Below, piece after piece: positions 12,151 through 15,533 of a stretch of DNA of 64,000 nt. Every line of letters starts with the position of its first letter. Position 1 is the first letter of the stretch. This DNA comes from Trichlorobacter ammonificans (GTDB taxonomy: Bacteria > Desulfobacterota > Desulfuromonadia > Geobacterales > Pseudopelobacteraceae), in contig NZ_OW150024.1 in NCBI RefSeq assembly GCF_933509905.1, positions 310,001 to 374,000 of the forward strand, given 5' to 3'. The notes below the pieces were generated by a model, which had not been told where the DNA came from, ran no database searches, and saw nothing but the letters and a program-made list of their open reading frames with translations. A program made the position numbers and the translations under genes.

Positions 12151-12738
12151 TCAGCGCCGTCGCACCAGAACGAGCCCGGCTAGGCCGACGCCGAGCAAGA
12201 GCAGGCTGGAGGGTTCCGGGACCGGTGCGGCATCGGCGTAGAGCAGCGTGGTGACTGCCGGCCTGCCGCTGTCCATGCTTTCGGATACCGCCAGGTAGAC
12301 GCCCTGGATGAGGTAGTCGTCAAGACGGGGGTTGGACACCACCTGGTGCCGGATGACGCTCCCCTGGCTGAAGCCGTAGATGACCGGCAGCAGCGTGCCG
12401 AACTGCCGCGCCTCCTCCGTGGTGAAGGGATAGCCGGTGATGGTACGGATGAAATAGTCGCCGGAGTCGCTGCCCGGAGGAAGCGGGGGGCCGGACCAGT
12501 AGGCAAGGGTCCTGCCGACATCGGCGGCATGGACCCTGAACATGACGAAATAATCCATATCGCCGATGCCTACCGTAAAATAGCCGGGCTGGTTGTCCGG
12601 TGCCGACGCAAACAGTTCCTGGCCGGCAGCCTCCGCAGCGGCGGAAACGTCGTATTCGGCGATGACTATCCGGGTTGCCGCCGCCGGGGCCGGCAGTACG
12701 CAGAGCAGTAGTGCGAGCGCGAGAAACAGTCCTTTCAT
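12151..12738 (-). CDS. PEP-CTERM sorting-signal protein
   Basis: A 195-residue exported protein. It has an N-terminal signal peptide (MKGLFLALALLLCVLPAPAA) and ends in a PEP-CTERM signal: VPEPSSLLLLG, a hydrophobic helix, then VRRR. Exosortase recognises this signal, removes it, and the product usually becomes part of the extracellular or exopolysaccharide-associated material. The middle part has no recognised domain. The start has a good ribosome site (AGGGGGATCAC). It is a single gene behind a probable sigma-54 promoter at 12792-12807. No exosortase or PrsK/PrsR gene is in the window. Confidence 0.85.
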   Translation of the reverse strand: MKGLFLALALLLCVLPAPAAATRIVIAEYDVSAAAEAAGQELFASAPDNQPGYFTVGIGDMDYFVMFRVHAADVGRTLAYWSGPPLPPGSDSGDYFIRTITGYPFTTEEARQFGTLLPVIYGFSQGSVIRHQVVSNPRLDDYLIQGVYLAVSESMDSGRPAVTTLLYADAAPVPEPSSLLLLGVGLAGLVLVRRR

Positions 12739-12791
12739 GTGATCCCCCTCCCCTGCCGCAGATGGCATGGCGTCTGTTCGGATGACGTAGC

Positions 12792-12807
12792 TGCAGCCTG
12801 CATGCCA
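12792..12807 (-). promoter_or_regulatory. Sigma-54-type promoter of the PEP-CTERM gene
   Basis: The minus strand reads TGGCATGCAGGCTGCA. Against the sigma-54 consensus TGGCAC-N5-TTGCA it keeps the invariant GG and GC with the correct spacing and differs at two positions. Transcription would start near 12781, 43 bases before the ATG. Two tandem GTAAACT heptamers at 12886-12899 lie about 90 bases further upstream, where an enhancer-binding protein could sit. Confidence 0.6.
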
Positions 12808-13029
12808 CGAGGGTGACCGCTGCCAACTGCCTGATCTGGCGAGATAAACGCAGGTCTGCCTATCCTCGCTGCAGACGCCGGCGACGTAAACTGTAAACTG
12901 TCCGGACGGAGCTGACGGGTTTATCGACGCTTGCATGTCACAAAGGTTCTTTTCCTTTCTGGTCCGCGGCGGTAAGCTGCTTCTGCGGCCGATGTCCCTC
13001 ATTTCCAACCGACCGCAGCGGGAGCGACC

Positions 13030-14016
13030 ATGCAGACGAGCAGCCATCCCTTTCAGAACCTGACCCCCGATTTGATCATGGACGCCGTGGAAAGCCAGGG
13101 GTTCCGCTGCGACTGTCGCAACCTGGCCCTGAACAGCTACGAAAACCGGGTCTACCTGGTGGGGATCGAGGAAGAACGGCCGCTGATCGCCAAATTTTAC
13201 CGTCCCGGCCGCTGGAGCGACGAGCAGATTGTCGAGGAGCACCGGTTCTGCCGGGAGCTGGCCGATCACGAGCTGCCGGTGGTGGCTCCCTGGTGCGCCG
13301 CTGCGGGCGAAAGTCTGTTCAGGTACTGCGGCTTCAGTTTCGCTCTCTATCCGCAACAGGGGGGGCATGCGCCGGAGTTCGACAATCTGGACAACCTGCT
13401 GATCCTGGGACGGATACTGGGGCGGATGCACCGCATCGGCGGGGTGGCCGCCTTCCGGCATCGGCCCGCTCTTGACAGCACGAGTTTCGGCTACGAGAGC
13501 GTGGAGCTGATCCGTGAGCATTTCATCCCGGCGGAGTATCGCGACAGTTACACCTCCCTGACCGGCCAGCTCCTTGAGAAGATCGACCGGCGGCTGGCGG
13601 AGGCGGGGCCGGTTCGTTCCATCCGCGTTCATGGCGACTGCCACAGCGGCAACATCCTCTGGCGTGACAATGCCCCTCATTTTGTCGATTTCGACGATGC
13701 CCGCATGGCTCCGGCGGTGCAGGATCTCTGGATGATGCTCTCCGGCGACCGCCGTCGCCGTCTGGCTCAGCTTGATACCCTGCTGGAGGGGTATGGCGAG
13801 TTTCATGACTTCGATCCGGCGGAGCTGCGGCTGATCGAGCCGCTGCGCACCCTGCGCATGCTGCACTACAGTGCCTGGCTGGCCCGGCGCTGGGACGATC
13901 CGGTCTTTCCGGCCACCTTTCCCTGGTTCAACACCGTGCGCTACTGGGGGGAGCATATTCTGGAACTGCGTGAGCAGCTGGCCGCCCTGGACGAACCTCC
14001 CCTGGCAGTGCATTGA
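13030..14016 (+). CDS. srkA: Stress response kinase A (YihE/SrkA family)
   Basis: A 328-residue kinase of the choline/aminoglycoside-kinase-like fold. The N-terminus (HPFQNLTPDLIMDAVESQGF) and the YENRVYLVGIEEERPLIAKFYRP lysine block match SrkA (YihE). The catalytic loop is VHGDCHSGNILW and the metal-binding Asp is in FVDFDDARMAP. SrkA is a cytoplasmic Ser/Thr kinase reported to protect cells under envelope and oxidative stress. The length equals that of the E. coli protein. The start has a purine-rich GGGAGCGACC upstream. Confidence 0.92.
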   Translation: MQTSSHPFQNLTPDLIMDAVESQGFRCDCRNLALNSYENRVYLVGIEEERPLIAKFYRPGRWSDEQIVEEHRFCRELADHELPVVAPWCAAAGESLFRYCGFSFALYPQQGGHAPEFDNLDNLLILGRILGRMHRIGGVAAFRHRPALDSTSFGYESVELIREHFIPAEYRDSYTSLTGQLLEKIDRRLAEAGPVRSIRVHGDCHSGNILWRDNAPHFVDFDDARMAPAVQDLWMMLSGDRRRRLAQLDTLLEGYGEFHDFDPAELRLIEPLRTLRMLHYSAWLARRWDDPVFPATFPWFNTVRYWGEHILELREQLAALDEPPLAVH

Positions 14017-14042: not shown

Positions 14043-14071
14043 TTGACATCCCCGCCCGCAGCCGGTATATC
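14043..14071 (+). promoter_or_regulatory. Near-consensus sigma-70 promoter abutting an ATG
   Basis: TTGACA (14043-14048), a 17-base spacer and TATATC (14066-14071). The predicted transcription start, about 7 bases downstream, coincides with the ATG at 14078. The next gene also lacks a ribosome site, so the message may be leaderless. Confidence 0.6.
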
Positions 14072-14077
14072 ACCCCC

Positions 14078-14983
14078 ATGAAACGATGCCTGCCCCTACT
14101 GCTACCGCTGTTGCTGCTGTGCAGCGCACCGGTCCTGGCCACCGAGGAATACGCCGGCCGCACCGGTAAGAGCTGTGCCGCCTGCCACGTCGATCCGGCC
14201 GGCGGCGGTGAATTGACGGCAGAAGGCACGGCCTTTGCCACCTCCCTTGGCAGCGAAGCGTCCCGCCCCGCCCTGTCGCCTGCCGCCAGGGGCCTGCGCT
14301 TCGTTGCCGGTTATCTGCACCTGCTTACCGCCATCCTCTGGTTCGGCACCATCCTCTATGTCCACTTGGTGCTCAAACCGGCCTACGCCTCCAGCGGCCT
14401 GCCCCGCGGCGAGCTGCGGGTGGGTATCGCCTCCATGGCCGTCATGGGGATCACCGGCATCATCCTTACCACCTTCCGGGTCGCCTCCCCGGAGCTTCTG
14501 CTGCACTCCCGCTTCGGTGTTCTGTTGCTGGTCAAGATTTCCCTCTACCTGGTGATGGTCACGTCGGCGACCTTCGTGATCACGGTGATCGGCCCCCGCC
14601 TGCGCAGAAAGCGGACGGAGGAGGCTGTGCTGGTGACCAGCGGCGAGATGAGTATCGAAGAGTTGTCCCGTTGCGACGGTGCGGAAGGGCGCCCGGCTCT
14701 CTTCGCCTTCAACGGCACCATCTATGATGCGACCGCCAGCCGTCTCTGGAAGCAGGGAAATCACATGGGGCGTCACCAGGCCGGCAGCGACCTGACCGAA
14801 GTGCTCTCCCAGGCCCCCCACGGTACCGAGCAGGTGGAGCGGCTGCCGGCAGTGGGACGCCTGGTGCCCGGCCTGACGCGGCCGGCACCGTTGCACGAGC
14901 GGGTCTTCTTCTTCATGGCCTACATGAATCTGGCAATCGTCTTCCTGATCGTGCTGATCCTGGCGCTCTGGCGCTGGTGGTAG
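14078..14983 (+). CDS. Membrane haem protein: CxxCH + CopD-like + cytochrome b5-like domains
   Basis: A 301-residue protein with four parts. A signal peptide (residues 1-21) is followed by a periplasmic CxxCH haem c site (residues 33-37, CAACH). Residues 75-172 hold a CopD-like membrane bundle of about four helices with His residues (GYLHLLTAILWFGT, LYVHLVLKPAY). Residues 192-260 match a cytochrome b5-like haem or steroid-binding domain (EELSRCDG, YDATASRLW, GNHMGRHQAGSDL, QAPHG), with likely ligands H229, H233 and H248. A last membrane helix ends the chain. The layout suggests electron transfer across the inner membrane. Its partners are unknown. No ribosome site is visible at the start. Confidence 0.78.
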   Translation: MKRCLPLLLPLLLLCSAPVLATEEYAGRTGKSCAACHVDPAGGGELTAEGTAFATSLGSEASRPALSPAARGLRFVAGYLHLLTAILWFGTILYVHLVLKPAYASSGLPRGELRVGIASMAVMGITGIILTTFRVASPELLLHSRFGVLLLVKISLYLVMVTSATFVITVIGPRLRRKRTEEAVLVTSGEMSIEELSRCDGAEGRPALFAFNGTIYDATASRLWKQGNHMGRHQAGSDLTEVLSQAPHGTEQVERLPAVGRLVPGLTRPAPLHERVFFFMAYMNLAIVFLIVLILALWRWW

Positions 14984-15134: not shown

Positions 15135-15533
15135 ATGCAGAATCTGCTTACCGCACTGAAACAGGAGCATGAGGCGTTGAAGGCCCAGGTGGCCCTGATC
15201 AAGCAGCACGGGGTGGTCACGCCTGACGGGTTTGCCGGACTGCAGCGGCTGCGCGAAATCCTGCATGCCCATGTTCTGCACGAGGATCTGGACCTCTATC
15301 CCCGTCTGGAACAGGCCGCTGTCCGGGACGACAACCTGCGGACGCTGCTCGACCGCTTTCGGGGGGAGATGCAGGAGATCACTGCCGAGGCGAACCAGTT
15401 CTACCAGCGGTACAGCGCTCCGGTTCAGTCGCTGGACTACGCCCGCGACGTGGCCCGCCTGTTCTCGCTGCTCACCAACCGGATCGTGACCGAAGAGGCG
15501 GTGCTCTATCCTTATCTGGAGAAGGCACCGTGA
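15135..15533 (+). CDS. Hemerythrin-like HHE domain protein
   Basis: A 132-residue cytoplasmic protein built from one hemerythrin-type four-helix bundle. Likely di-iron ligands are the His and Glu residues of LKQEHEALKAQ, the HAHVLHEDLDLYP block (two His plus Glu), and the late TEEAVLYPYLE. HHE proteins bind O2, NO or iron. In metal-reducing anaerobes they are thought to handle oxygen or nitric oxide, but the ligand here cannot be read. It sits 16 bases upstream of the DTW gene and is probably co-transcribed with it. The start has a GAGGGG site. Confidence 0.85.
   Translation: MQNLLTALKQEHEALKAQVALIKQHGVVTPDGFAGLQRLREILHAHVLHEDLDLYPRLEQAAVRDDNLRTLLDRFRGEMQEITAEANQFYQRYSAPVQSLDYARDVARLFSLLTNRIVTEEAVLYPYLEKAP

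Follow-up and report, generated by a model that had tools for sequence, protein, structure and literature searches.

What does a bacterium do with a protein that strings a haem c site, a CopD-like bundle of membrane helices and a domain resembling cytochrome b5 along a single chain of 301 residues? We addressed this question in the window, by which we mean the whole 64,000-nucleotide stretch of DNA analysed here, and in the relatives of the gene elsewhere. Our preferred answer, which we hold to be probable, is that the protein acts as a transmembrane cytochrome, conveying electrons from one side of the inner membrane to the other, often for the reduction or detoxification of nitrogen oxides. 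The features on which the argument draws are as follows.

14043..14071, + strand: predicted sigma70-type promoter, TTGACA-17-TATATC, with the -10 box ending 6 nt before the ATG
14078..14983, + strand: the whole gene (the core gene below), ATG at 14078, stop ending at 14983, 301 aa
14078..14140, + strand: signal peptide, residues 1-21, with cleavage at APVLA-TEE, assigned by eye from the sequence
14174..14188, + strand: CAACH haem c motif, residues 33-37, periplasmic, from the sequence, with C33, C36 and H37 present in 113/113
14279..14368, + strand: membrane helix 1, residues 68-97, bearing the invariant H81 and H96 (AlphaFold2 and alignments)
14405..14479, + strand: membrane helix 2, residues 110-134 (AlphaFold2), within the CopD match at 114-181
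14510..14620, + strand: membrane helix 3, residues 145-181, with the invariant K153, followed by the positive loop RLRRKR (AlphaFold2 and alignments)
14639..14866, + strand: b5-like domain, residues 188-263, cytoplasmic, with H229, H233 and H248 (Pfam, AlphaFold2, structure match and alignments)
14891..14977, + strand: membrane helix 4, residues 272-300, C-terminus periplasmic (AlphaFold2); an octahaem domain follows here in 10 relatives
15135..15533, + strand: hemerythrin-domain protein (PF01814, E 3e-10), 151 nt downstream of the core gene

The reading frame and its position were confirmed, as was the order proposed in the initial annotation of signal peptide, CxxCH, CopD-like bundle and b5-like domain, and both of the motifs named there, G-x-H-x3-H-x-A-G and APHG, are found in the protein. 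The AlphaFold2 model (mean pLDDT 83, pTM 0.72) has four long helices and a b5 fold at residues 188-263, the fourth helix, after the b5 domain, being absent from that annotation. Profile matches lie close to or well below the family cut-offs. Pfam CopD (PF05425) matches residues 114-181 with E 4e-7 and 30.7 bits against a curated cut-off of 32.1, and Cyt-b5 (PF00173) matches residues 194-262 with E 3e-4, scoring 21.1 in one search and 24.4 in another for a cut-off of 23.7. An NCBIfam search of the protein returned no model above its cut-off. The CAACH motif is predicted to be a secreted c-type haem site, and it is the only CxxCH in the protein, as against the eight expected of an HAO-family octahaem cytochrome (PF13447).

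The combination of domains had been taken to be the novelty of the locus, a view that did not survive comparison with other genomes. Relatives recovered in protein, contig and profile searches rule out a fusion unique to one genome and reveal a conserved family in several phyla. In a protein search of 97 relatives, 48 genomes gave a match, which in 46 extended beyond a short piece. Scanning GTDB contigs with peptide seeds yielded 174 confirmed related stretches; by record name, the best 80 of these comprise 51 from Thermodesulfobacteriota, 13 from Nitrospirota, eight from Myxococcota and the remainder from smaller groups, and many are metagenome bins. A profile search across 395 genomes of the phylum gave matches in 109 genomes and the full-length arrangement at 50 places (counted by hand), many of the other matches covering the b5 part only. 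At E<=0.01, all 62 members of alignment A1 match CopD and 56/62 match Cyt-b5. Within the open-access literature searched, we found no paper that joins CopD, cytochrome b5 and Geobacter or that describes the architecture. The family is apparently widespread and unnamed.

Eight ligand-type residues, C33, C36, H37, H81, H96, H229, H233 and H248, are invariant in 113/113 aligned sequences, comprising 84/84 non-redundant unfused homologues, 7/7 fused forms (described below; three other fused ones stand outside the count) and 22/22 further members. The 84 sequences derive from 111 loci after removal of duplicates and of four entries, namely another copy of the window gene, two sequences that were cut short and one with a frameshift, and the 22 further members were found by profile as a check on bias from the peptide seeds of the GTDB scan. 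The invariance of these candidate ligands is more than chance. H96 follows H81 by 15 residues on helix 1, and helices 2-4 contain no other invariant histidine in the 84, 7 and 22 sequences. This spacing resembles that of the two haems in cytochrome b helices. Helix 3 has an invariant K153 and a nearly invariant M160, which is L in 1/7 fused forms and 1/22 further members. We infer that H81 and/or H96 bind a haem b inside the bundle, for which K153 and M160 might be considered as partner ligands; H81 is common to CopD proteins. The haems may be shared within a dimer. In the fused forms L142-L147 and L150, helix 3 has an extra histidine towards the cytoplasm (HRR, HRH or HSR), where unfused forms have G-P; this residue could pair with H96. 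A likeness of the bundle to the designed dihaem protein 4D2 and to cytochrome b6f (Z about 10-11) was set aside, as values below about 13 may be chance for helical bundles.

The b5 domain supplies three invariant histidines, H229, H233 and H248, as candidates for an axial pair. Its closest solved counterparts are small prokaryotic cytochromes b5 from Methanococcoides (6vz6; Z 15.1, rmsd 1.0 A over 76 residues) and Hadesarchaea (6nzx; Z 14.6), with rmsd in the range 1.0-1.2 A, 41-49% identity and all three histidines kept. Both were solved as stand-alone domains, whereas in the window protein the b5 domain is flanked by helices 3 and 4 of the membrane part. 6NZX is described as a monomeric b-type cytochrome (PMC7096707). 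Elsewhere in the phylum, a b5 domain of like kind is coupled with a membrane domain resembling DUF2231 (L151, at 1076-1792, L152 and L153; L151 alone was profiled, with DUF2231 just under its cut-off), so the domain appears to be a mobile module carried by several membrane bundles.

The orientation of the protein is indicated by its fused relatives. At 10 of the 50 full-length places, the frame continues into an HAO-family octahaem cytochrome, giving products of 728-796 residues, and all 10 carry nine CxxCH motifs, one at the start and eight past helix 4. PF13447 was matched in both fused tails that were profiled, and the tail of L143 matches 4qo5 with E 8e-46 and the HAO structure 1fgj with E 5e-27. 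Two fused relatives, L143 (41.3) and L145 (44.2), also pass the PF05425 cut-off. The fused forms make up one clade (SH-aLRT 99) in a quick tree that carries a long-branch warning. Because haem c becomes attached exclusively outside the cytoplasm and the fusions have CxxCH motifs at both ends, both ends of the protein should be periplasmic; four helices between periplasmic ends, with the b5 domain between helices 3 and 4, then place that domain in the cytoplasm. A periplasmic haem c and a cytoplasmic b5 domain are thus strongly implied, the fusions providing independent support for the predicted topology.

HAO-family octahaem cytochromes (1fgj, 4n4j, 4qo5) occur beside the core protein as well as fused to it in relatives, while the window protein has no octahaem part. 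A separate HAO-like gene adjoins the unfused gene in 5/81 loci (L047, L063, L079, L099 and L111, flanks of up to 5 kb), with gaps of 88 and 233 nt in two relatives. In L144 and L145, an additional HAO-like gene with eight CxxCH adjoins the fused gene, and L145 also has a four-CxxCH gene.

Among the 97 relatives, the core gene is associated with RIC, the gene for repair of nitric-oxide damage. RIC scores above its cut-off in 34/46 genomes with the core gene vs 9/51 without it (odds ratio 13, ignoring phylogeny), and seven core-RIC pairs lie <=5 kb apart vs 0.098 expected; none of 20 control stretches contains RIC. These counts include only RIC matches above cut-off (49 places in 43 genomes), leaving out partial RIC near the core gene in G074 and G052:C21, and exclude the two genomes with short core gene matches (G045 and G077), three other short pieces (G020:C149, G056:C150 and G087:C299) and the second pieces of split genes. 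In one clade (L051, L055, L057, L058 and L059), the gene for a Pyr_redox_2 NAD(P)H-type flavoprotein begins on the same strand 0-88 nt past the core gene, and such a gene also follows the core gene in L097 and L062. It was identified by profile in L051 and by clustering in the others, and is nearest to CoA-disulfide reductase, under the cut-offs for that group. Nitrite and nitrate reductase-like genes were seen by eye among the neighbours in relatives, along with many unrelated genes. Neighbours vary widely, the RIC, HAO-like and flavoprotein partners are all absent at most loci, and a conserved operon around the core gene was sought across loci and not found.

The preferred reading of the protein as a transmembrane cytochrome would operate as follows. 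Electrons would reach the b5 domain from a reductase in the cytoplasm, or would be drawn from quinol within the bundle; they would cross the bundle by a haem b on H81 and/or H96 and pass out by way of haem c to cytochromes in the periplasm, a direction of flow that we infer. The periplasmic partner in relatives appears often to be a nitrogen-oxide enzyme, either an HAO-like octahaem cytochrome or a nitrite reductase, and so the family probably helps to reduce or detoxify nitrite, hydroxylamine or NO. The nitrogen-oxide role is the weakest step where the copy in the window is concerned. The initial annotation had already suggested an electron conduit, quinol- or metal-linked, with up to three haem or metal centres; a conduit with three haems, of which the membrane haem is putative, agrees with the invariance of the candidate ligands, with the orientation that the fusions indicate and with the b5 fold, and a quinol link may or may not apply. 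The modules themselves are known; in the proposed reading they are assembled into a transmembrane cytochrome conduit.

A bolder version, which we regard as tentative and rather doubtful, is that the family represents an unrecognised class of transmembrane conduit in which NAD(P)H in the cytoplasm is the electron source, a flavoprotein, the cytoplasmic b5 domain and a bundle with haem b form the path, and HAO-like octahaem reductases are among the periplasmic cytochromes that act as acceptors. Such a conduit would bypass the quinone pool and NapC/NrfH and would mainly remove nitrogen oxides. In many anaerobes, the electron route to HAO-like and other periplasmic nitrogen-oxide enzymes is open where NapC/NrfH is not evident. 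A conserved single-gene candidate, fused to such an enzyme in one lineage, makes the question directly testable, and proteins labelled merely "CopD" or "cytochrome b5" may turn out to be respiratory components.

Alternatively, the protein might be a quinol dehydrogenase, in which menaquinol would be oxidised at the bundle, haem c would receive the electrons, and the b5 domain would be no more than regulatory or structural. This would be the job of NapC, NrfH and CymA done with another fold, those proteins being single-helix tetrahaem proteins that likewise pass membrane electrons to periplasmic cytochromes, whereas the window protein is predicted to be a four-helix bundle with one c site and one b5 site. 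Octahaem and nitrite-reducing enzymes, as a matter of general knowledge, usually receive their electrons from quinol via membrane cytochromes, and the further multihaem genes adjoining the fused gene in L145 and L144 suit such a role. However, the ligands of the b5 domain show the same invariance as the others, and a flavoprotein follows the core gene in one clade; we consider this explanation unlikely. Haem-based sensing of redox state or NO, with no part in electron carriage, would account for the RIC and hemerythrin neighbours, which suggest NO or oxygen stress, and for the next gene in 10 Geomonas-type loci, which looks like a diguanylate cyclase (by sequence likeness; annotated as such in L040). 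Pfam finds no signalling domain in the protein, however, and the octahaem fusions look enzymatic, so that a sensor seems very improbable.

A third role is suggested by the CopD family itself (PF05425; E. coli YebZ and B. subtilis YcnJ), namely the import or export of copper, or of iron, with the attached redox domains reducing the metal. Three of the membrane helices align to YebZ 152-259, the CopD profile matches every member of the 62-sequence alignment, and a copper role is possible because H81 aligns with a CopD histidine, YebZ H153, which would correspond to YcnJ H295. A conserved CopD histidine of YcnJ is reported to be required for function (PMC13344008). The window protein differs from these proteins in adding the haem c and b5 parts and the invariant H96, at whose position YebZ has no histidine, and in having no more than four helices altogether. 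Its score against the NCBIfam model copper_CopD (NF033808) is 38.2 for a cut-off of 195, no copper protein was found among the neighbours annotated by profile (the remaining neighbours being judged by eye), and the octahaem fusions suggest electron transfer instead. We consider metal transport quite unlikely.

For the window's own copy, the nitrogen-oxide link is the hemerythrin gene next door and nothing else. That gene is possibly a functional neighbour of the core gene; a profile built from the hemerythrin gene found no relative near the other loci. The window genome gave no RIC match. A direct HAO partnership was rejected there, with no HAO-like match in a search that does work, since PF13447 matches in G005 and G052. 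The genome does have an octahaem nitrite-reductase-like gene, with no pentahaem NrfA among the matches listed, which agrees with the account of Trichlorobacter ammonificans in PMC11972089. Upstream of the core gene by 61 nt, on the same strand, a PRK11768-type serine/threonine kinase occupies 13030-14016 (482 bits, cut-off 194), and a small secreted protein with a PEP-CTERM-like tail (VPEPSSLLLLGVGLAGLVLVRRR) was recognised by eye on the minus strand at 12151-12830.

The start of the core gene is itself unusual. Of the 533 ATG starts in the window that open frames of at least 100 codons, the core gene's alone has a promoter of this layout, and a leaderless mRNA is predicted from the position of its -10 box. 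The same layout is present in 26/84 orthologues, compared with 0.6% in shuffles, and none of the 26 has a Shine-Dalgarno match. In most Geobacterales-type orthologues of the window gene's clade, the -10 box lies 6-9 nt before the ATG, again with no Shine-Dalgarno match, and related clades have an AAGGAA-type ribosome site in place of the leaderless-type promoter.
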